Positions 12,405 through 23,514 of a stretch of DNA of 26,065 nt are shown piece by piece. Every line of letters begins with the position of its first letter. Position 1 is the stretch's first letter. The DNA is from a virus. Location: the IMG/VR virus record IMGVR_UViG_3300044302_005204, positions 1 to 26,065 of that record; one strand, given 5' to 3'. The position numbers were made by a program, and so were the translations under genes. A model generated the notes under the pieces. The model made no database searches and was not told the origin of the DNA. It was given only the letters and a program-made list of their open reading frames with translations.

Positions 12405-15227
12405 TTATGGATATTGATAACCTACCCATACTCCGTTTTCTACTCCTGGAGATGCTCCTCCTCCCCCATATTGTAAAATAGAAGTATTAGTTCCTAATTG
12501 ATTAACTATTCCTCCTTGAGGATTATATAGTACATTGCTTCCTCCTAACTGAGTTCCATTAGTTCCACCTGTATTAGGGTTAAAGTAATTATCATGTGAA
12601 TATCCATTATGTGCATTTTTTAAATACCCATTAACAAACATACTAACATATGGATATATATTATATTTACTAAGAAATAATCTATCTCCAAAATTATTAA
12701 GACCTCCATTTTCTAACAACGCATGACCATTATAAGCAGTCCAATAAGGGCCTACTTCTACATTATCTGAATTTGTATAACATGCTTGTCCATATCCTTG
12801 AAGACCTACATAAGCAACTGCAGAAGATTTAAATAAACTATATTTAATCCTATAAGGAGTAGCGTAAGGAGTAACATCCGGATTTGCATATGTTTGATCA
12901 GCAGTTAAGGTTTTATATCCTATTATACTTTGATCTACATTATGATAACCACCATCGAAATTATTATTAGATAATTTAGATGTCATTTCTAGGTCTGTTT
13001 TTAAACAAAATTCTTTTGCTTTTAAATCATAAAAAAGCATATAACTACCATTTTTTCCTGCTAAATTAAAAAGAGACATAGGGTATCCTATATTTTCATA
13101 TTTTGTACCAAATCCTATTTGTGCAAACTGTTGACTAAAAGGAGTTTGAGGAGCTAAAGCTTCAGATAAATAATTATCATAAGTTCCTTCTACTAATCCT
13201 TGAAAAAATCCAGGAGGTATAGGATTTCCTTGTCCTGAACCTGCATCAAAAAAATTATCTGTAAGTGTATACCCATAATTAGAGGCATTTGAATCTGAAT
13301 AATTAGGAGTTTGTCCATTATTTAAATTAAATAATTCTACCATCAATGCATTAAGAGCTTGGTGATCAATCATGCCATTAAAGGCTGAATATTGATTTGT
13401 GATATTTTCTGCTGGATTTGTTATTTCTAAAGCATCTGTAATTTCTGCCATAGCATTAAATATAGAAAATTCATCTACTGTAAATACTGTAGCACTTGAT
13501 GGATGGTTAAGATGATTTGTATCATGGCCTATTAACCAACCTAAATCTCCAAACATATAGTTATATGCAGCTGATCCTACAAAATAAGCTTCCCATGGAT
13601 GAAAATACTGATTAACATTACCATATGTTAACCTAAAATCTATTACGTCACATAATACAAAATAAGAATTATCAAATTCATATATAGGTTGACCATATAT
13701 TTGGAATGTTTTTCCTTCATTATACAATTTAAAATTACCATTTTGATAATTAATAAAAGCACTAGTTCTATATCCTCCAAAATTACCCTGAGCATCAAAT
13801 GCTTCCCAATTTAAACCTCCTATTAAATTAAGTTCTAAAGCCCAATCATTAGGTCTAAAGGATATTCCTGCTTCTTTTGCTATAGAAACTGATTGTTTGT
13901 AATATTCAAAATTTGTATCGTTAAATAAGGCTTGAAGTATAGGGCTTTGGTTTAAACCTCCCCACATTCCTGATCCAGGAGCATTTATTTTAGGGGTACC
14001 ATATACTGTTATTGTAGTTAAACCGCTAGGATTTCCATAATCATCAAGAAATGCATCTGTTGTTGCCCAATCATCTCCTAAAGGTTCTATAACCTCCCAA
14101 GTATTTGGTAATCCATTAAATAATTCTATAGTAGATGTGCTTTCAGGGTGGTGTTCTTTTGATTTGATTCTACCTACTGCATTTAAAACCCCAGCGTATT
14201 TTTTATCTTTACCCCATTTTTTTACATAGTTACTTAAAAAATTTCCATTATAATAAACACCTCCTCCTACATCAGCAGTTTCTATTCCATCAAAACCATA
14301 AAGTTCATATAATGAGTCTATATTTACGGGCCACATAGAGGAGTCTGATGTTTTTCTAATAAATTGAATTTTTTTAAAATGTCCTTTAGGAATAGTTTCT
14401 GTTATTAAGGTAGGTTCATCATTAAAATCTAAAACATTATATAAATATGTTATTTCACAGGGTGAAGAAGTAAGAAAAGAATCAGTTCCTCCTGCTTCGA
14501 TTTGAGCTGCAGTTAAATCTGATTGTTCCGTTCCATAACAATAAAGGGTTACTTCATGGTAAGGGTAATAATCAACTATAGATAAAGATAAATCTTCAAG
14601 ATCTGTTATGTTTAGTTGGTCTCCTTTTAAATTTAAGTCTAAATAGTTATTAATATCAGGACCATCAGGAATAGCATTTAATTCTTCTAAAGAAATAAAA
14701 TAAAAACCACTATCTTCTTCTATAGGTAAACTTAAACTTTTTCTAATAGTTTTATATAGATTTCCATTAAATGATGTATGGTCTATTTTTCTTTTTTTAC
14801 CCTCTTGCATTAAATAAGATTGATTTTCAAAAAAATCAAATGGAGTCCCTTGAGCTCCTGCTGTTATAAAAGAACCATTTTCATATAAGGGGTGAGAATC
14901 TACAATAGGGTTTTGTAAATCGTTTAATATATTTAAAAGTTCTTCTTGATTTTCTAAAAGTTGATCTATTTGGTTGTCAAGATTTTCATTTTCTTGCACA
15001 TGAAGATGTAAATGTTCTGTTTCTACTATTTGTCTGTGTGATTTTGTTCCCTGTTTTGGGATTTTATAAAATAACTCATTGTAATAAAGTACTACCTTTT
15101 CATTAGCTAATTGGTTGTCTATATATTCTGGAGTTTGTGCTAAATTAGAAAAAGATGTTTGATAAATAGAATTAGCATATTTACTGCTAATTACTTTTTT
15201 TTTTAAATCTAACTGTTGGTTTGCCAT
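12405..15227 (-). CDS. Long tail fibre-like protein, candidate receptor-binding protein
   Basis: This is a 940-residue protein. Residues about 45-110 contain YYNELFYKIP and a coiled coil (NLDNQIDQLLENQEELLNIL near 82-101). HPLYENGSFITAGA (112-125) and NQSYLMQEGKKRKI (135-148) follow; this arrangement is shared with the shorter downstream protein. The rest is aromatic, Asn/Gly/Tyr-rich and beta-type, ending in a Gly-rich tail (about 885-940) that includes GGGGASPG near the C-terminus. That composition is usual for distal fibre regions that contact the host surface. No enzymatic motif is visible. Its start overlaps the preceding stop codon by one base (TAATG), which suggests translational coupling. 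The receptor-binding role is inferred. Confidence 0.55.
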   Translation of the reverse strand: MANQQLDLKKKVISSKYANSIYQTSFSNLAQTPEYIDNQLANEKVVLYYNELFYKIPKQGTKSHRQIVETEHLHLHVQENENLDNQIDQLLENQEELLNILNDLQNPIVDSHPLYENGSFITAGAQGTPFDFFENQSYLMQEGKKRKIDHTSFNGNLYKTIRKSLSLPIEEDSGFYFISLEELNAIPDGPDINNYLDLNLKGDQLNITDLEDLSLSIVDYYPYHEVTLYCYGTEQSDLTAAQIEAGGTDSFLTSSPCEITYLYNVLDFNDEPTLITETIPKGHFKKIQFIRKTSDSSMWPVNIDSLYELYGFDGIETADVGGGVYYNGNFLSNYVKKWGKDKKYAGVLNAVGRIKSKEHHPESTSTIELFNGLPNTWEVIEPLGDDWATTDAFLDDYGNPSGLTTITVYGTPKINAPGSGMWGGLNQSPILQALFNDTNFEYYKQSVSIAKEAGISFRPNDWALELNLIGGLNWEAFDAQGNFGGYRTSAFINYQNGNFKLYNEGKTFQIYGQPIYEFDNSYFVLCDVIDFRLTYGNVNQYFHPWEAYFVGSAAYNYMFGDLGWLIGHDTNHLNHPSSATVFTVDEFSIFNAMAEITDALEITNPAENITNQYSAFNGMIDHQALNALMVELFNLNNGQTPNYSDSNASNYGYTLTDNFFDAGSGQGNPIPPGFFQGLVEGTYDNYLSEALAPQTPFSQQFAQIGFGTKYENIGYPMSLFNLAGKNGSYMLFYDLKAKEFCLKTDLEMTSKLSNNNFDGGYHNVDQSIIGYKTLTADQTYANPDVTPYATPYRIKYSLFKSSAVAYVGLQGYGQACYTNSDNVEVGPYWTAYNGHALLENGGLNNFGDRLFLSKYNIYPYVSMFVNGYLKNAHNGYSHDNYFNPNTGGTNGTQLGGSNVLYNPQGGIVNQLGTNTSILQYGGGGASPGVENGVWVGYQYP

Positions 15228-16396
15228 TATCTTACAACTTTAAAATAATAATCATTATCATATATAGTTGTTCCGTCGTTATTTTTATGTTTAAACAAAA
15301 CACGATAATATCTTTCTGGTTGAAGTCCTTTCATATATACTTTAAAATACATTCCATTACTATCAGCGCTTAATTTTGTATTTTTATCATCAAAAGGGAT
15401 TACTTCTTGTTCTGTATGTGCATCTCTTATACTATAGTAAGATGAAGTAGTAAAATAACCTTTATCTAAATAATTTGAAGTTGTAGTAAATCTTCTTGTT
15501 GGGTATTTATCTCTTACATGGATTCTAAAAGTAGCTATATCATTTTGATTATATTGTTCTTTATTTCTGTATAAAGATACTTGTAAATCACCACTAGTTT
15601 TAGCTGAAGCTTGATAAGTGTGAGTACTATCATCCCATATAAAGGCTAATTTAGGAGGGTGAATAGTATGTGTGTCTACAGAAAAATATTGTAATTCTCC
15701 AAAACTACTAGATGTATTAGCTTCTACATTGTTTGGTTTTTTAAGTATTATTCCATAGTTAGGTATTCCATCAGGATAAGTACTTTCACTGTATAAACTT
15801 GCACTCCATTTTTTGACTGTATCTTTTATATTAAAACTAGTGTCTAAAGAGTCTCCAGTTAAAAACTGTTGAGCATATTCAAAACCACTACCTGTATACC
15901 ATACTCCACCTCCTTGGGTAAGTTGTACCCCTGATGAGCTTATAGATCCTGTAGAAAATATTTGGAAACTAGAAGTTATCCATTTAGTTGCTGTTGTATC
16001 ATTGTCTCTATGTATCCAAGTTGCTCCATTTGAACTTGTAGGTAAGTTAGAATATCTTCCTGTACCTTCTCTCCATGATTGAGAAACTGCATAAGCATGT
16101 ACATTTAAAATATGTACTAAATTTTTGGGTTCCGCTGATGTAAGTTGTAAACTAGCTGTAATAGGGCCTGCAGAATCTGATCTATTAAAAACATCATGTC
16201 CCATAGATTCAATAGCTCCTTTAATATCATCATTAGAAAATTGAACTAATATTCTTGAGGGATATAAATAATTATCTGTTGATCCTTGTTCTTTGGTTAT
16301 TTCTAAGATTTCATCACTTCCTGCATTCATATCTGATCTATCAGGATGACTATATAGGGTTGTATCTTTTTCCGGAAATATAAAATAATATGCCAT
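15227..16396 (-). CDS. Virion protein with DNRLRE-like domain
   Basis: This is a 389-residue protein. Residues about 7-130 and about 200-255 follow the pattern of DNRLRE domains. The opening is EKDTTLYSHP, then NAGSDEILEI, then SRILVQFS and ITASLQLTSA, then SQSWREGTG. Next come an IKDTVKKWSASL segment, NYGIILKKP and PPKLAFIWDD near 245-255. DNRLRE domains are beta sandwiches usually found in secreted bacterial surface proteins. The C-terminal third (from about residue 265) looks like a second beta domain with LQVSLYRNKEQYNQNDIATF. The gene directly follows gp6 (TAATATG junction) and overlaps the next fibre gene by one base, so it probably makes a baseplate-to-fibre connector or peripheral baseplate part. 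The domain call is from memory of the family pattern. Confidence 0.6.
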   Translation of the reverse strand: MAYYFIFPEKDTTLYSHPDRSDMNAGSDEILEITKEQGSTDNYLYPSRILVQFSNDDIKGAIESMGHDVFNRSDSAGPITASLQLTSAEPKNLVHILNVHAYAVSQSWREGTGRYSNLPTSSNGATWIHRDNDTTATKWITSSFQIFSTGSISSSGVQLTQGGGVWYTGSGFEYAQQFLTGDSLDTSFNIKDTVKKWSASLYSESTYPDGIPNYGIILKKPNNVEANTSSSFGELQYFSVDTHTIHPPKLAFIWDDSTHTYQASAKTSGDLQVSLYRNKEQYNQNDIATFRIHVRDKYPTRRFTTTSNYLDKGYFTTSSYYSIRDAHTEQEVIPFDDKNTKLSADSNGMYFKVYMKGLQPERYYRVLFKHKNNDGTTIYDNDYYFKVVR

Positions 16397-16397
16397 A

Positions 16398-18299
16398 TTA
16401 GTATGTTGTTACGCGTCCTTTAATATCTGTATTAGGGTATTTTAATTCAAAAATACTTGGGTCTAATGAGGGGTAAATTACCTCATTTTTAGTTGCTGTA
16501 TCTAAAGGATATTTATATTGAGAATATCCTGAAAGGGCTCCTGATTTATTTGAAAATGTAACACTTTCAACTGTTTGAACTCCTTTTACTCCTCCTATTA
16601 CGTTTTTAATATCTGTAATAATTATAGGTTGATTTATTTGCCATTTATCTATATTGAAATAGCTTTTTAATTCATTAATACAATCTAATATTACACTTTG
16701 GTTGTTATAATTTTTAAAAGCAGTAACTTCAAAATCAATAGCTATATTAATTACAAAAGCATCCTTAATATTAATAGCATCTGTTAAAGTTCTAAATTCT
16801 TCTAAATATGTAGCTAAATTTGTTTTTGTAGCTGTATTTAAGGTAGCTAATTCTTTACTAGAATTATACCCCATAACATATAAATTCATAGCTAAAGGGT
16901 TAGGAATACGATGTTCTAAACTATAAGAACCTGGATTTAAAGCTATTTGATCATCTTGAACGATATATGCTTTAGCTACACTCCCAAATTGTGGAGGCAT
17001 AGATAGGGCTCTTATAATATAATCTTCTCTAGTTATTGTTCTACCTTGAGTAGAAAAATTAGCCATAGTATTTAGTCTTATATCTTCTATACTATCACCA
17101 TCACTTCCTCCTCTTGCTGCTTTTGGATTAGTAACAGTTATGCTACTATTTATAAAGTTTTTCATACTTGAAACTAGGTTAGGTTTAAAGTTAACCTGTA
17201 GAGTTTCTTTATTAACAATAGTATTACTATTTACATTAGCTCCTAACCCCCCTCCTGCTATATATTTTATATTTAAGGTAGTATTTGCAGGGGCTTGGCC
17301 ATAAGCTTTTGTATGAAGAAAATTAGAAGGATCATAAAAAGTATCTAATTTATTTCTTCCATCTTTAATACCTAGTCCTATATTATCTGGGTTAGGAACA
17401 ATTAGTTCATCAGATTGTGTGCTTGTACCTGCTCCAAATTGAATTTCTATCCTATTGTTAGGTTTAACTCTAGATATAAATCTTCTAGGGACTTGTTTTG
17501 TTTTTAATAAGTAAGGAGTTTGATGGGAGTATTGGCTTAACGAAGGATCATTAGCTTCATTATTTGGGACCTTTTCAAATATAGTATCTTGAGCTAAAAA
17601 ATCAACCTCAGACCATTCATTACCTTCTCCATCTGTAATAGAATCTATAGCTATTATATCAGTATCAAATAGAGTTATAGTTTTAAATTTTGTAGCAGAA
17701 CCTATTGTAATATTTTGAGATCTTACTTCACCAGATATAGCGGGGACTGTTTTTGTTAAAATATAGTATTCAGGATTCATACTTGAATCATACTGATATA
17801 TGCTTGATGTAGTTTGTCCAAAAGAAGAAGAATAAGTAAAATCACAATCACGTGTAGTATAAAATGTAGGCCCATCAGTAGAAGTAAAAGTAGCATTAGC
17901 CATAATAACTGTAGCATAGTCATAATCAGGTACATATGCCCCATCTAACATTTTAGAAGGTACTAATTGTGATATTTCTAAGTCTACACTAGCTGCTGTT
18001 GTTACTTTGGGTTTATATCCCATCGCATGAGCCATATTATATAAATTTTCTCTATCTTGTGCTAAAGATAGGAAAGTTTCCTGCATTTGAGTATCAGTAT
18101 AAAAAGATAATACATCACCTACGTAAGCAGCCATTTCTAAAAACATCATACCTGGATTTCCTTCACTAAAATCATTAAAATTTTGAGGAAAATAAGTTTT
18201 AGCAAACTCTATAAGTTGATTTTTATAAGAATCAAAATCTTTATTTAGATATTTAACATCTTTACTTTGAAATTTATTTGATACTTTATTATAAGCCAT
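16398..18299 (-). CDS. gp6: Baseplate wedge protein, T4 gp6-like (baseplate J family)
   Basis: This is a 633-residue protein, close to T4 gp6 at 660. gp6 forms the inner ring of the baseplate, joining wedges around the hub and controlling contraction. The N-terminal region has the family pattern: LNKDFDSYKNQLIEFAKTYFP, then FSEGNPGMMFLEMAAYVGDVLSFYTD, then QETFLSLAQDRENLYNMAHAMGYKP. The centre has a SRVKPNNRIEIQFGAG strand and a GGGLGANVNSNT loop. TREDYIIRALSMPPQFGSVA near residue 420 is another typical gp6 segment. It immediately follows gp25 through a TAATATG junction, the usual gp25-gp6 pairing of T4-like phages. The assignment is firm. Confidence 0.92.
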   Translation of the reverse strand: MAYNKVSNKFQSKDVKYLNKDFDSYKNQLIEFAKTYFPQNFNDFSEGNPGMMFLEMAAYVGDVLSFYTDTQMQETFLSLAQDRENLYNMAHAMGYKPKVTTAASVDLEISQLVPSKMLDGAYVPDYDYATVIMANATFTSTDGPTFYTTRDCDFTYSSSFGQTTSSIYQYDSSMNPEYYILTKTVPAISGEVRSQNITIGSATKFKTITLFDTDIIAIDSITDGEGNEWSEVDFLAQDTIFEKVPNNEANDPSLSQYSHQTPYLLKTKQVPRRFISRVKPNNRIEIQFGAGTSTQSDELIVPNPDNIGLGIKDGRNKLDTFYDPSNFLHTKAYGQAPANTTLNIKYIAGGGLGANVNSNTIVNKETLQVNFKPNLVSSMKNFINSSITVTNPKAARGGSDGDSIEDIRLNTMANFSTQGRTITREDYIIRALSMPPQFGSVAKAYIVQDDQIALNPGSYSLEHRIPNPLAMNLYVMGYNSSKELATLNTATKTNLATYLEEFRTLTDAINIKDAFVINIAIDFEVTAFKNYNNQSVILDCINELKSYFNIDKWQINQPIIITDIKNVIGGVKGVQTVESVTFSNKSGALSGYSQYKYPLDTATKNEVIYPSLDPSIFELKYPNTDIKGRVTTY

Positions 18300-18300
18300 A

Positions 18301-18711
18301 TTATCTAAAATTTAATTGTATAACATCTGATTTATTATTTAATAAATTTTTATAAATAATAGTCAGATGAAGTAAGTGTTCATTGTCGTCATTTTTTTTA
18401 ACTGTCATTTCTTCTAAACTTATATTAGGGATATGGGTTCTTATTTGGTTTCTTGTTCTTAATTTTAATAAATCTAAATTTAAATTAGATTCAAATAGAT
18501 ATTTTTTTATTCCTATTCCATATTTAGGTAAATTTACTCTTTCTCCGGGTTGGGTTAAAAGTAAATTAATAAGATTAGCCTTATTTTGTTCAGACATAAG
18601 TTTAGTCCCATTAAAAAAATTTTTTTCATCTATAGGGAATCCTACTCCTATCGTAACATTTTTGTTTTGATCTAAGGGGTTTATTCTTTTATGTTCTTTT
18701 ATTATAGGCAT
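18301..18711 (-). CDS. gp25: Baseplate wedge protein, T4 gp25-like (GPW/gp25 family)
   Basis: This is a 136-residue protein; T4 gp25 has 132. It is a sheath-initiator and wedge-core component conserved in contractile tails and type VI secretion systems. The family landmarks are visible: GVGFPIDE near 22-29, NLINLLLTQPGERVNLPKYG (46-65) with the conserved Pro-Gly-Glu-Arg at 55-58, and KKYLFE ending in Glu 74. A Leu-rich helix (LDLLKLRTRNQIRTHIP) follows, then a terminal strand pair. It is encoded directly before gp6, with only one base between stop and start, and after a coiled-coil protein with a 6-base gap. Despite the historical lysozyme label of this family, no catalytic role is claimed. 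Confidence 0.92.
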   Translation of the reverse strand: MPIIKEHKRINPLDQNKNVTIGVGFPIDEKNFFNGTKLMSEQNKANLINLLLTQPGERVNLPKYGIGIKKYLFESNLNLDLLKLRTRNQIRTHIPNISLEEMTVKKNDDNEHLLHLTIIYKNLLNNKSDVIQLNFR

Positions 18712-19207: not shown

Positions 19208-20251
19208 TTATTGCAGCTGATTTGGACTAATATTAACTTGAGTGAATGATAGGTTATATTGTTCTCTAAATTGTGCGTCAAGTTTTACTAGTCTTTCAAC
19301 AGCTACGAGATTATTTTGTGATAATAATGTTTGAAGAATATTTTGATAATGGTCATTATACCAAGTTATGGCATCGTCATAAGTTGCAAATCCTCTTGTA
19401 GGGTCTCCTACCCAGTTGTTCCCATCATTATTATTATTATCATTATCATAATCATCTGTGTCTTGAGTATCTGTATCTCCATTATCAAATCCATCAAAAT
19501 CATCTGTGTCACTTTGAGCAGCTAAAAAGTTATTACAATTTAATTCATGTTGGTTACGTAAGCTTTGTAAATAAACAGCCATTGATACTGCTTGGTCCCT
19601 TATACCTGCTACTCTTTCTCTAAAAGCTAACATTTTATTATATGTAAGCAGAGCCATGTCTATAATATTTTGTATCATAGGGGGGATTGCAATAATAAGA
19701 TTTGCATATCCTAATATAGCCTTTCTAGCATTGTCTCTTGATGATGTAATTTTATCTTCTGCAGTAGCATTTGAAAACATAGCAGTAAAAGTTAATAGTA
19801 AAAGAGGAGCTAATGCTACTATTATTCGTAATATCTCCATTATAGGTTCTATTTTACATAATATACGTTGAATTTTTCCTAAAGGACCTGCAGGTTGGTC
19901 TTCTGAACCTGTTTCTTCTGAACATCCTTCTACTCCTTCTACTAATTTTCCTAATTTATCTAAATATTTGTCAAATTGTTCTAATGACCCTTCAAGTATA
20001 TTTTTTGCAGTAACTAAAATATCATTAATTTCATCATATTTTTCGTTCCATTTTTCCATGCCTTTTTCACTGCATGTTTCTTCGTTTACATCTACTTTTA
20101 AGTCTTCTTGTATACTTTTTGCTGTTGGGAGTTTCTGTTGTTGTTCTAAAAGTTTCTTTTTAACTTCTTTCATTAACCATTGTTTACCCCTATTTATTTG
20201 AGGGGTAATTTGAGATATTACTATATTTCTTATTTGTCTATTTAAAGCCAT
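19208..20251 (-). CDS. Baseplate-locus protein with two hydrophobic segments and acidic linker
   Basis: This is a 347-residue protein I do not recognise. The N-terminal 110 residues are helical and charged, with cysteines at 60 and 110. Two strongly hydrophobic stretches follow: about 138-159 (EILRIIVALAPLLLLTFTAM) and about 179-201 (ILGYANLIIAIPPMIQNII, continuing), separated by a short charged loop and so resembling a membrane hairpin. Residues about 247-278 are an Asp/Asn/Gly low-complexity linker, and a C-terminal helical domain (about 288-332) ends the protein. It lies between the spike protein and the gp25 cluster, starting 2 bases after the spike stop. Hydrophobic segments are unusual in a baseplate protein. 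They may act in crossing the host inner membrane or be buried in a multimer. No T4 counterpart is evident, and tape-measure-like function is only a possibility. Confidence 0.45.
   Translation of the reverse strand: MALNRQIRNIVISQITPQINRGKQWLMKEVKKKLLEQQQKLPTAKSIQEDLKVDVNEETCSEKGMEKWNEKYDEINDILVTAKNILEGSLEQFDKYLDKLGKLVEGVEGCSEETGSEDQPAGPLGKIQRILCKIEPIMEILRIIVALAPLLLLTFTAMFSNATAEDKITSSRDNARKAILGYANLIIAIPPMIQNIIDMALLTYNKMLAFRERVAGIRDQAVSMAVYLQSLRNQHELNCNNFLAAQSDTDDFDGFDNGDTDTQDTDDYDNDNNNNDGNNWVGDPTRGFATYDDAITWYNDHYQNILQTLLSQNNLVAVERLVKLDAQFREQYNLSFTQVNISPNQLQ
19424..19456. repeat. Trinucleotide-rich low-complexity tract (ATT/ATC)
   Basis: The plus strand has an ATC/ATT repeat run that encodes the Asp/Asn-rich linker of the hydrophobic baseplate-locus protein on the minus strand. 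Such tracts can change length by replication slippage in steps of one codon without breaking the frame. Confidence 0.7.
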
Positions 20252-20253
20252 GG

Positions 20254-20811
20254 CTATGCTATTTTTACTTTTTTACTTAACATATCTACAAGTCTTTGTT
20301 TAAGAATTTTCATATTATCTTTAGTTATTTTAAAAGCTTTTTCATTTGCTTCTCCTCCTATCATAGTCTCTGGACCACCTGAAGATGTAAATTCAGAGTC
20401 ATTTACTCTGTATGAAACCCCATATTGAACACCAAAAATTACTTGACCTATAACATCTATAATGTCATCTAAAATATCAAGTAATTCAAATCCAAGAACT
20501 GCAGGTTGTTCAGGTAAACCTGTAATATTATCCATTCCTAAAAATACATAAGTAGTATTTATTACAAACCTAGATTGAACTCCTCCATCAAAATTAAACC
20601 CCCCATTAGTACTAAATCCTATACCCTTATCTGCAAAATGAAGTATACTATCACTTTTAGCATTAAATACTAATCTATCTGAATTTAATATAACTTGATT
20701 ACCTATATAAGTTTGTGGACTTTGTGGTACATAAGAAGAAGCAGCCGCCATCGATATCCTGGTAGCCATATTCCAATCTCCTTGTACTATTGCGTGTGAT
20801 TCTAATCCCAT
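20254..20811 (-). CDS. Baseplate spike-like protein (short beta-structured spike)
   Basis: This is a 185-residue protein counted from the ATG at 20811. A TTG at 20820 would add three residues, but the ATG sits one base after the preceding stop, matching other junctions here. Residues about 36-76 repeat a strand pattern (NQVILNSDRLVFNA, then DSILHFADKGIGFSTNGGFNFDG) like the intertwined beta-helix of gp5 or VgrG spikes. GLPEQPAVLGFELLDILDDI (98-117) resembles a conserved segment I recall from phage baseplate spike proteins. A basic helix (KDNMKILKQRLVDMLSKKVK) ends it. It follows the OB-fold and peptidase genes in the order of the domains in T4 gp5. It would form the needle that punctures the outer membrane. 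The beta-helix reading is by eye. Confidence 0.55.
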   Translation of the reverse strand: MGLESHAIVQGDWNMATRISMAAASSYVPQSPQTYIGNQVILNSDRLVFNAKSDSILHFADKGIGFSTNGGFNFDGGVQSRFVINTTYVFLGMDNITGLPEQPAVLGFELLDILDDIIDVIGQVIFGVQYGVSYRVNDSEFTSSGGPETMIGGEANEKAFKITKDNMKILKQRLVDMLSKKVKIA

Positions 20812-20812
20812 A

Positions 20813-21382
20813 TTATTCAATTACTGCATCTAATGCAGGTTTATTTATATCATGGGTAAAATTACCTGATCTTGTTGTATTCTCACTTTCATAAAAACTA
20901 TGAACTGTATCTTTTTCAGAAGAAATAGATAATGTTTTTGGGAGACTATACTCATTATAGGAAATATGAATCCATGAACTATTTGTATTATTTTGACTAT
21001 ATTGGCCTCTTTCAGGATATTCCCATATTAATTGAGTAAAATAAGGTAAATTATTAACACACCAATTAAATAATACAGATGTAGATCTACCTATACTAAT
21101 AAAATCTACTGCATATCCTTTAATATGTTGGGAGTTTTCAACTCCTGGAGGTGAAAGTTGTGAATTTAATGCTTTACTTCTATATGCAGATTTAATAGCA
21201 ATATCTCCAAAAGCATCTATAAGGGGTCCTATGCAATACATATGTACTTGTTGTAAATTATGCCATATAAAATCTTCAGTAAGAAGAGGATCAGTACCAA
21301 CATCAACCCCCGGGTAGTTATTGATACTTTTCATTATAGCAACTTCACTATATATTTGTTCATATTTATTAAATCTTGCCAT
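20813..21382 (-). CDS. M15-family zinc peptidase, likely tail-associated peptidoglycan hydrolase
   Basis: This 189-residue enzyme would cleave peptide cross-links in peptidoglycan. It shows the M15 (VanY/D-Ala-D-Ala peptidase) motifs in order: AYRS at 66-69, NSQHIKGYAVDF at 83-94 with zinc ligands His86 and Asp93, LIWE with the candidate catalytic Glu121, and WIHISY with zinc ligand His139. No signal peptide, membrane segment or holin gene is near. It sits between an OB-fold hub protein and a spike protein, with single-base spacing on both sides. That points to a baseplate enzyme that locally opens the cell wall during infection, replacing the lysozyme domain of T4 gp5. A conventional endolysin for host lysis is the alternative. 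The catalytic family is firm; the role in the particle is inferred. Confidence 0.85.
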   Translation of the reverse strand: MARFNKYEQIYSEVAIMKSINNYPGVDVGTDPLLTEDFIWHNLQQVHMYCIGPLIDAFGDIAIKSAYRSKALNSQLSPPGVENSQHIKGYAVDFISIGRSTSVLFNWCVNNLPYFTQLIWEYPERGQYSQNNTNSSWIHISYNEYSLPKTLSISSEKDTVHSFYESENTTRSGNFTHDINKPALDAVIE

Positions 21383-21383
21383 A

Positions 21384-22349
21384 TTATCCTAATATTTCAC
21401 TTAAATTTACTCCTGCAGGAACTATATAGGTTTCTGGTAAAGAAAATATAGTTTGTGGGAGTATTATTTGTTCTTCTGTAGGAGCTATATCGTAAAATGC
21501 TGTTTCTGAATCTTCTAAATATTGTAATTCGTTTTCTGTTTGTAATTCAAGAGGAACTAAATTAGGAGATTCACTTAATACTATATCTTCTTCTACATTA
21601 TCATTTAAATCATTATTTTGTATTTTAGGAGCTTTTACTTTTGTAGTAAAAATACTTACTGCTGAACCATAAGACCCATCGTTTGTAGATGCAGGTATAA
21701 AATCAGATATTTGTTGTCTAGAACATAAATATATACTAGAGTCATCATCATTTATATTTTCAACTATACGTTCAAAAGATTCTCCTCTATCTTTTGTTCC
21801 TTGTCCGTTTCTAATTATAGTAATAGGTTCACCAGGTTCTCCTTCATTGCTCCAAGAATTTTGATGAGTAGTGCTTTCTGAAGAGTTATTTGTTGTAGAT
21901 CCAAATCTTATACTATTTCCCCATCGACCTTCAAAAGTTATATCTCCTTCATATGGTCTTAAAGGTTGTATATTTTCTTTTATTTTAAAAGTTCTACCTT
22001 GTTCATAATCTGAATTATATACATTTAATTGTCCTGGTAAAGGGGATCCTTGAGGAGCTTGATGAAGAGATATAGGTGAGCCATAATACCATATTTCGGC
22101 TTCATTATTATTGTATTCAGAACTAGGAGCAGGATATATATGTACTAATTCTTTTCTTACAGGATAATGTGACAAGTTGAAATGTAGTGGTCTTGCAACA
22201 TGACAACTTCCATAATTATCAGTTGCTGGTTCATCTTGACCTAACCAAGTAAAAAGAATACTACCTATAGAATCTTCTTCTCCTAAAGTAGAATAATATT
22301 TTGCGTCTAAGGCATCTAATATAATAAGTTGTACTTTTCCTATATACAT
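21384..22349 (-). CDS. Baseplate hub protein with gp5-type OB-fold pattern
   Basis: This is a 321-residue protein. Residues about 50-75 (HVARPLHFNLSHYPVRKELVH, then IYPAP) and 131-151 (RPYEGDITFEGRWGNSIRFG) match the strand pattern of OB-fold hub proteins in T4-like phages. EPITIIRNGQG (174-184) and ENINDDDSSIYLCSRQQI (197-214) complete the barrel-like region. The C-terminal 100 residues are acidic and low in structure, ending in a short strand-rich segment around 285-321 (TIFSLPETYIVPAG) that could dock a partner. It is followed after one base by the peptidase and then the spike, paralleling the domain order of T4 gp5. It would form the tail-tip ring that holds the spike. The alternative is another hub protein with a similar fold. 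Confidence 0.6.
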   Translation of the reverse strand: MYIGKVQLIILDALDAKYYSTLGEEDSIGSILFTWLGQDEPATDNYGSCHVARPLHFNLSHYPVRKELVHIYPAPSSEYNNNEAEIWYYGSPISLHQAPQGSPLPGQLNVYNSDYEQGRTFKIKENIQPLRPYEGDITFEGRWGNSIRFGSTTNNSSESTTHQNSWSNEGEPGEPITIIRNGQGTKDRGESFERIVENINDDDSSIYLCSRQQISDFIPASTNDGSYGSAVSIFTTKVKAPKIQNNDLNDNVEEDIVLSESPNLVPLELQTENELQYLEDSETAFYDIAPTEEQIILPQTIFSLPETYIVPAGVNLSEILG

Positions 22350-22352
22350 TAT

Positions 22353-22727
22353 CTATTCTTCTTTAGGTTCTTCTAATTGTTTAGGTTTTTCAACAGTTTT
22401 TGATATTTCTTCTGCTACATTCTGAAGTTGTTCCATTTCTTCTTCTGTTAATAATCCCCCATCGCCACTAGAAGTAGCTCCTGTAGATAAGCGTTGTACT
22501 ATAGCAGCCATTTTTATTAGTTGGTCGTCATTTTTAACGCTGATTTCCATATATTCTTTAATTAAGGGTACTACTACAGTGGCATCTCCTAAAGAAGTAA
22601 TAAGAGGACGCAATTCAGCAATTAAAGAAGCTAATTGTTTTGATTTTTTTGATTGATTTTTGTGAATTTCTTTTAATAAGTCAGAAAAACTTTTATCATC
22701 AAAAATTATTTGGTTTAATGAGTCCAT
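22353..22727 (-). CDS. Small helical protein, first gene of the baseplate block
   Basis: This is a 124-residue protein predicted by eye to be nearly all helix. The N-terminal half is basic and Leu-rich (FSDLLKEIHKNQSKKSKQLA, then SLIAELRPLITSLGDATVV). A Gly/Ser hinge lies at about 84-91 and the acidic tail (residues 93-124) is rich in Glu, Lys and Pro. No family is recognised with certainty. It is the first gene after the candidate late promoter, and 3 bases separate it from the OB-fold hub gene, so it is probably co-expressed with the hub genes. An assembly chaperone or small hub component is possible. Confidence 0.45.
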   Translation of the reverse strand: MDSLNQIIFDDKSFSDLLKEIHKNQSKKSKQLASLIAELRPLITSLGDATVVVPLIKEYMEISVKNDDQLIKMAAIVQRLSTGATSSGDGGLLTEEEMEQLQNVAEEISKTVEKPKQLEEPKEE

Positions 22728-22752: not shown

Positions 22753-22768
22753 AAGGATTTAAATCCTT
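22753..22768 (-). terminator. 16-bp perfect palindrome over the late sigma stop codon, possible terminator
   Basis: The sequence AAGGATTTAAATCCTT is a perfect palindrome and includes the TAA stop of the sigma gene. As RNA it can form a 6-bp stem with a 4-base loop, followed on the minus strand by TTTTATATTTAT, a weak U-rich tract. It may be a weak intrinsic terminator or a protein-binding operator next to the candidate late promoter. The stem is AT-rich, so confidence is low. Confidence 0.35.
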
Positions 22769-23514
22769 ACATATCCCGTATCACGATATTCGTTATGGAG
22801 TTTTTTATATATTTTTTTTAAGTATTTTGTTACTTTAGTAATAACTGGAGTTTCTACATTAGTCATTTCGCGAATATAAATATATAGTGCTTTTTTATTA
22901 AAAATTTCTAAATTTTCTCTACGTTTAAAGAGAGTATTTACAGCATCACAAACTTTTCTATCGTTATCTTTTTTAAACATAGTAAACATATGTTTATCTA
23001 CATATGCAGTAAAGTAATCTATAAAATCTTTTAATTCTTTTTTTCTTTCATCTCTACCTAATGAATGTATAACACTACTATCTTCATCTGCAGCCATAAC
23101 ATCTGTTTTTATTTTTTTCTTCTTATAATTGTTATTATTATAAAGAATGAGGTAGTTTTTACCTACAATAGAAAAATAAGAAAAAGCTTTTGATCCTTTA
23201 GATGGGTCAAAATAGTCTAATTTTTCTAAGAGAAAACAAATTACTTCATGTTTTAGGTCTTCTAAATTATCTACTTCTGTATAGTAAAACTTAAAAGTAT
23301 GGATAAGATTTTCTGCTAGTTTATAAAAAGGGTAATGAATACGAGTTTTATATATGTAATCTCTTTCATCTTGGTTAGAGGATTCTAAATATTGTTTTAT
23401 AGCTAAGTCTGTATCTTCAGTAAAGTATCTTTTTTTTGTTCTTTTTCTTCCTCTCTTTTTTTTAGGAGGAGGAATAGAGTCTGATTCCAGTTTAATTTTG
23501 GTTTGGTTTGTCAT
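22759..23514 (-). CDS. gp55: Late-transcription RNA polymerase sigma factor, T4 gp55-like
   Basis: gp55 binds host core RNA polymerase and directs it to late promoters, coupled to replication through the sliding clamp in T4. The sigma region 2-like core is at about 84-124 (LEDLKHEVICFLLEKLDYFD, then PSKGSKAFSYFSIVGKNYLI), preceded by a conserved helical segment (YPFYKLAENLIHTFKFYY, 61-78). At 251 residues it is longer than T4 gp55 (185). The N-terminus is strongly basic and disordered (PPPKKKRGRKRTKKR, 15-29). The C-terminal 40 residues (REMTNVETPVITKVTKYLKK, from 215) may form an extra helix-turn-helix. I do not see an obvious C-terminal clamp-binding hydrophobic motif. It lies between a small membrane protein and the start of the virion block. 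Confidence 0.82.
   Translation of the reverse strand: MTNQTKIKLESDSIPPPKKKRGRKRTKKRYFTEDTDLAIKQYLESSNQDERDYIYKTRIHYPFYKLAENLIHTFKFYYTEVDNLEDLKHEVICFLLEKLDYFDPSKGSKAFSYFSIVGKNYLILYNNNNYKKKKIKTDVMAADEDSSVIHSLGRDERKKELKDFIDYFTAYVDKHMFTMFKKDNDRKVCDAVNTLFKRRENLEIFNKKALYIYIREMTNVETPVITKVTKYLKKIYKKLHNEYRDTGYVRI

Follow-up and report, generated by a model that had tools for sequence, protein, structure and literature searches.

Analysis of a 26-kb phage fragment (the window, that is, the whole stretch of 26,065 nucleotides that was analysed) revealed three consecutive genes that very likely encode the central spike of a contractile tail, of the gp5/gpV/VgrG type, made of three chains and carrying an M15_3 peptidase in the virion at the joint between hub and needle. 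We also lean towards a wider reading, in which a marine phage lineage would possess a split spike with an exchangeable cartridge (M15, amidase, M23 or VanY) that was swapped in evolution and is maybe held non-covalently. In any member of this lineage that has an enzyme, the chain would be interrupted between needle base and distal needle, and this interruption would replace the proteolytic maturation of T4 gp5.

Three genes in a baseplate cluster

The three genes are transcribed from the minus strand in the order hub, M15 peptidase, spike. They are encoded within a baseplate gene cluster and are followed by genes for gp25 and gp6 homologues, which indicate a contractile tail (Table 1). A sequence-only reading of this DNA had claimed three consecutive ORFs with one base between each pair. 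This was borne out by ORFs of 321, 189 and 185 amino acids, with TAA-T-ATG at both junctions. One-base spacing was also found between the gp25 and gp6 genes of the window; the spacing is therefore ordinary packing of the phage and not special. Measured against T4 gp5 in the strict sense, the window encodes three separate ORFs instead of a single precursor polypeptide and an M15_3 domain in place of the lysozyme domain. The spike could also start at an upstream TTG, which would give 188 amino acids, or at one of the ATGs at codons 1, 15 and 21; its homologues start at about residue 25 of the window protein.

From the AT-rich upstream regions, which show no evident Shine-Dalgarno motif, and from a Flavobacterium relative, we infer a host among the Bacteroidota. 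Other genes around the cluster drew attention as well. The gene that directly follows the spike diverges fast: it is 26% identical to its counterpart in one relative (L008), whereas gp6 is 67% identical there. In two relatives (L013:6795-8429 and L015:10747-12324), the homologue of a 389-aa gene (window 15227-16396) gives a match that is broken in two, with 400 to 470 bases between the parts. Directly upstream of the baseplate cluster, positions 22759-23514 weakly match the T4 late sigma factor (phrog_234, E 0.0086), and this gene is kept in relatives. Positions 926-1354 match phrog_447, labelled NAD synthetase (1.1e-26), as well as homing endonuclease families, and the label looks doubtful.

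Table 1. Coordinates in the window of the three genes, their predicted parts and neighbouring genes
Feature	Position	Strand	Basis or remark
Conserved 124-aa gene upstream of the hub, marker for finding relatives	22353..22727	-	
Hub gene, 321 aa	21384..22349	-	ORF; gp5-type OB fold, proximal needle strands and acidic tail predicted (AF2, VIA-align)
Predicted OB fold, hub residues 1-105	22035..22349	-	strands 2-9, 31-35, 50-54, 68-75, 85-93 (AF2); alignments to OB domains
Four strands, probable needle base (compare T4 gp5 389-427), hub residues 130-215	21705..21962	-	strands 137-140, 145-151, 175-181, 205-209
Acidic, low-confidence tail, hub residues 216-321, probably disordered	21387..21704	-	pLDDT mostly 45-65, net charge -16
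Hub/M15 junction TAA-T-ATG	21380..21386	-	sequence
M15_3 zinc peptidase, 189 aa, slot enzyme	20813..21382	-	Pfam PF08291 2.2e-7; phrog_894 endolysin 5.9e-15
His86 and Asp93, predicted zinc ligands	21104..21127	-	each kept in 51/51 slot enzymes
Glu121 to His139	20966..21022	-	Glu121 46/51, Glu124 51/51, His139 49/51 slot enzymes
M15 C-terminal extension, residues 147-189, motif around H161...RSGxYTHxI	20816..20944	-	common to split and hub-fused slot enzymes
M15/spike junction TAA-T-ATG	20809..20815	-	sequence
Distal spike gene, 185 aa from ATG	20254..20811	-	ORF; start codon uncertain; homology to the C-terminal portion of fused hub-spike chains
Hydrophobic period of 8 residues, likely an intertwined beta needle, spike residues 34-78	20578..20712	-	lag-8 autocorrelation 0.41, p=0.002 vs shuffles
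Two predicted helices, spike residues 108-176	20284..20490	-	AF2
347-aa variable gene directly after the spike, no function assigned	19208..20251	-	ORF
gp25-like baseplate wedge gene	18301..18711	-	Pfam GPW_gp25 6.1e-11
gp6-like baseplate wedge gene	16398..18299	-	phrog_6 8.8e-21

Hub, spike and peptidase

T4 gp5 comprises an OB fold (residues 1-129), a lysozyme domain (174-339) and a needle beta-helix (389-575), of which residues 389-427 form a four-strand antiparallel base and residues 428-575 an intertwined corkscrew (PMC4576200). The AF2 model of the hub (mean pLDDT 78.6; mostly 81-97 over residues 1-100 and 121-200) predicted an N-terminal OB fold that continues, in the same chain, into the strands of a probable needle base. 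Alignment of the model with VIA-align returned, among the matches listed, 16 with at least 100 aligned residues, and all 16 were central spikes of contractile systems or VgrG. Their Z scores were 4.7 to 6.1, and values below 8 are weak by the tool's own notes. The matches included P1 (9vzk_q, Z 6.1), P2 gpV (3qr8, Z 5.7), VgrG (9jg9_G, Z 5.6), Mu (9ki1_V, Z 5.5) and T4 gp5 (1k28_A, Z 5.4 over 153 residues). Most of the unrelated OB proteins that were matched cover only about the first 100 residues of the hub, and this pattern of coverage is a stronger argument for a predicted spike hub than the Z values, which are moderate.

At moderate Z, residues 1-229 of the hub model aligned to T4 gp5 10-442 and residues 1-239 to gpV 18-162. 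Because the model spans T4 gp5 10-442, the hub would hold the OB fold together with the initial strands of the needle, leaving the distal needle alone to a separate spike chain; the equivalence with the T4 needle base is drawn from aligned ranges and not from residue pairs. In the most natural reading, the hub chain would stop once the needle base is complete, and the corkscrew would be the spike chain. The OB-fold hub proposed from sequence was thus retained as a predicted fold, but the chain appears to carry more than an OB fold, and the implied break at the border between OB fold and needle gives way to a break inside the spike, after the needle base. Acidic tails of 90 to 196 amino acids occur in most split hubs. 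In five relatives (L011:1911-2908, L065, L162, L166 and L196) the hub stops early ('SYxHML'). One of these, L011, has a separate 96-aa ORF before the M15 gene, and L065, L162 and L196 have a gap of about 300 bases there, perhaps a four-piece version.

Foldseek comparison of the hub and spike models with the PDB gave no match below E 0.001, and the BFVD matches to the hub model were viral relatives only. Searches of Pfam, PHROGs and NCBIfam returned nothing usable for either protein, and sequence profiles of both proteins gave no meaningful match among PDB chains; one spike homologue weakly matched phrog_3216 (baseplate assembly protein, E 0.0055). The OB and beta assignments thus rest on structure prediction and on relatives. 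The profile searches that the sequence-only reading had suggested placed the peptidase above a Pfam cut-off but found no family for the spike or for the hub, which did not match Gp5_OB or Phage_base_V.

In the AF2 monomer of the spike, residues 34-78 form an extended chain (pLDDT about 70-87) and no beta pairing is present. The beta part of the model had no match in the PDB, and VIA-align matched helical pairs only. Homology links the spike to the C-terminal portion of the fused hub-spike proteins, and the 8-residue repeat of the spike recalls the octapeptide repeats of T4 gp5 (PMC3004832). The beta-structured spike that had been proposed would fit this homology, this repeat and the extended chain of the monomer model.

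The enzyme matched Pfam Peptidase_M15_3 with 31.4 bits (cut-off, 23.2). His86, Asp93 and His139, the predicted His-Asp-His zinc ligands, and Glu121 were all located where they had been assigned, and the enzyme lies between hub and spike as in the gp5 order; a predicted peptide-cleaving enzyme thus stands where T4 has a lysozyme, as claimed. Glu121 aligns to the Glu of endolysin-type M15s. It is present in the window but is less constant than the neighbouring Glu124: in five of the 51 slot enzymes (L015, L052, L072, L075 and L181) it is replaced by Ala, Glu124 being kept in all, and the catalytic Glu may have shifted. In two further relatives (L134 and L147) the third zinc ligand, His139, is replaced by Ser, and these enzymes may be inactive or use another ligand. 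The C-terminal extension is common to split and hub-fused slot M15s and absent from endolysin-type M15s. Phylogenetic analysis separated the slot enzymes, as one group, from every other M15 in the tree (98% of bootstrap trees).

Layouts in relatives and alternative explanations

IMG/VR was scanned with the upstream 124-aa gene, the spike and the fused proteins as anchors. The 327 loci recovered fell into 201 clusters (95% identity over at least 800 bases), of which 175 were complete and were counted. The nearest 80 loci were kept per scan, so the cluster counts describe the sampled loci and are not frequencies in nature. Fused hub-spike proteins without an enzyme were the most numerous layout (68 of 175), followed by hubs with another C-terminal domain and a separate spike (43) and by the three-gene layout of the window (40, reading frames intact). 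A fused hub-M15 protein with a separate spike was found in 16 clusters (e.g., L015, 661 aa), another ORF between hub and spike in two, and hub and spike as separate genes without an enzyme in six. Hub, enzyme and spike in one chain were found in none of the 175. Wherever an enzyme or extra domain occupies the slot, the spike is a separate gene (101/101 clusters), and in the window's own lineage it always is. What had appeared a single oddity is rather a family-wide slot with several enzymes (M15_3, Amidase_2, M23 and VanY).

The domain identities refer to 24 of the 43 'other domain' hubs, those of the first census. Pfam identified Amidase_2 in 13, VanY in three (two below the curated cut-off) and M23 in one; PHROGs added an amidase in two more, and five had no identity in Pfam or PHROGs. 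The C-terminal parts of the hubs of L054, L069, L071, L076 and L092, together with L056:2140-4353, are large slot domains without a Pfam match, possibly undescribed wall enzymes. The fused forms belong to distant relatives. Two of them, Flavobacterium phage immuto and Microcystis phage Mel-JY01, have a single protein that is homologous to the hub in its first part and to the spike in its second part, with no enzyme between. Scanning of the genes that follow fused hub-spike proteins revealed VanY in L006 and a GH19/chitinase-like gene in Mel-JY01; the ten others scanned contained no wall enzyme.

In a tree of the hub OB region only, the fused hub-spike proteins form one side of a single branch (support, 100/99). 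This tree requires at least 6 changes between separate and fused M15 and at least 14 changes of enzyme type; a first, quicker tree that included long branches gave 5 and 15. Because the split corresponds to a single branch, the perfect co-occurrence of a filled slot with a separate spike amounts to one historical event and not to 101 independent ones. The tree is unrooted; the fused spikes of P1, P2 and Mu suggest that fusion is the older state. In the six clusters with a separate spike and no enzyme, the enzyme seems to have been lost later; one of them, L093, sits among amidase hubs. The fusions of hub with M15, amidase, M23 and VanY argue strongly that the enzyme belongs to the hub.

The presence of fused forms in relatives might suggest that the three genes are a broken gp5-like gene or an assembly error. 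The layout recurs in 40 clusters from independent contigs, its frames intact, and so reflects neither chance nor gene breakage; the broken gene and the assembly error were both rejected as having practically no chance of being correct. Programmed frameshifting and readthrough were likewise rejected, since the frame of M15 relative to that of the hub is not constant (8, 17 and 15 cases). An endolysin made late for host lysis, merely sitting between two baseplate genes, would agree with the best family matches of the M15, which are endolysins (phrog_894), and with the annotation of free-standing M15_3 proteins of pelagiphages and Bacteroides phages as endolysin or peptidase. Four longer relative contigs contain no Amidase_2 or Phage_lysozyme gene, which is uninformative, these contigs being fragments. 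However, the peptidase is part of the hub polypeptide in 16 clusters, amidase, M23 and VanY domains occur in the same hub-fused position, and the slot M15s are a group of their own with an extension that endolysin-type M15s lack. Position and the 16 fusion clusters tie the M15 to the hub and set it apart from a free-standing lysis gene; as the main explanation the endolysin was rejected, and we regard it as improbable.

The hub-M15 fusions, together with the conserved position between hub and spike, also speak against a virion peptidase with another place in the tail, away from the hub/needle joint. In P1 the wall enzyme is carried on the tape measure (PMC9024508), and the link between the M15 and the joint comes from gene position and from fusion in relatives; such a placement is just as improbable as the endolysin. 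For the small third protein, a role as another baseplate or fibre part would be consistent with an AF2 monomer without beta pairing and with structural matches dominated by helices. A needle is favoured by homology to the C-terminal part of the fused hub-spike proteins, by an 8-residue repeat as in T4 gp5 and by the phrog_3216 match of one homologue, so that we give a non-needle part a marginally smaller chance than these two.

Proposed device and known systems

To our knowledge, a tail spike is normally presented as a single chain, and the reason for the cutting of T4 gp5 is known from one phage. In the three-chain spike that we favour, the hub chain would trimerise, closing the end of the tail tube and providing a predicted OB collar and needle base, and the spike chain would be stacked on it as the distal, intertwined trimeric needle. 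The M15_3 peptidase would be a wall enzyme carried in the virion at the joint, docked probably through contact of its C-terminal extension with the acidic tail of the hub, two elements that are a candidate natural docking pair. When the tail contracts, the needle would be driven through the outer membrane and then detach, and the peptidase thus freed would cut peptide bonds in the wall. Relatives provide a series from fused proteins without an enzyme through fused hub-enzyme proteins with a separate needle to fully split forms, and this natural series makes the need for separating enzyme and needle in wall cutting testable. Evolution appears to have refilled the enzyme slot repeatedly, and pieces arranged around an exchangeable wall-cutting enzyme suggest a modular way to build an injection tip.

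T4 gp5 shares with the window the order of hub, wall enzyme and needle and the predicted OB fold and needle base. It differs in that it is made as one precursor that is then cut, with the lysozyme before the needle base, whereas the window has three genes, an M15 and a break after the needle base. Separate chains do not set the window apart from T4, as had been thought, because T4 gp5 is itself cleaved at Ser351-Ala352, within the stretch that links the lysozyme to the needle (PMC3004832), and both products, gp5* and gp5C, stay in the virion (PMC3004832, PMC7650644). Enzyme and needle thus end as separate chains in both, and encoding them on separate genes gives the arrangement that T4 reaches by proteolysis. 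Trimeric T4 gp5 with gp5C has 10% of the lysozyme activity of the free form (PMC3004832).

P1 gp5, P2 gpV, the Mu spike and the R2 pyocin spike resemble the window in combining an OB fold with a needle and are structural matches of the hub model. As in the fused relatives, each is one chain with no enzyme inside and, unlike the window, has no separate spike gene and no slot. That gp5-like proteins can lack the lysozyme or carry a replacement is already known, for example from P1, whose gp5-like spike lacks the lysozyme domain (PMC9024508). The spikes of T6SS (VgrG) and eCIS have a similar modular OB/needle core, which the hub model also matched. Enzyme domains attached to VgrG/eCIS-type spikes are known, and such effector domains are usually found at the C-terminal end, whereas the enzyme of the window would lie between needle base and distal needle. 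Phages immuto and Mel-JY01 have a homologous baseplate cluster and hub-spike protein, but with hub and spike fused and no enzyme inside.

The cultured Methylophilales phage Melnitz (MZ577097.1, L204:2462-5505) has a gp5 split in two genes (QZI94880 and QZI94881), the first with Gp5_OB and a VanY-like domain and the second encoding the needle with a C-terminal domain. We take this domain to be M15-like from its motifs SQHNTGNAVDL and WIHIS; Pfam gives only a weak VanY match there. A text search of the Melnitz paper for a split gp5 with VanY/M15-like domains found no mention of them, and the phage is said there to be without other lysin-like genes. Nor was a description of split gp5 genes found in the literature searched, a coverage that leaves out most subscription journals. 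Melnitz resembles the window in its split gp5 with VanY/M15-like domains; it differs in its recognisable T4 gp5 sequences, its two genes, the position of one peptidase domain after the needle and its lineage, and its gp5 was split independently of the window's lineage. Three features are new compared with these systems: the three-gene form, which is conserved, the position of the break within the needle, and the enzyme slot.
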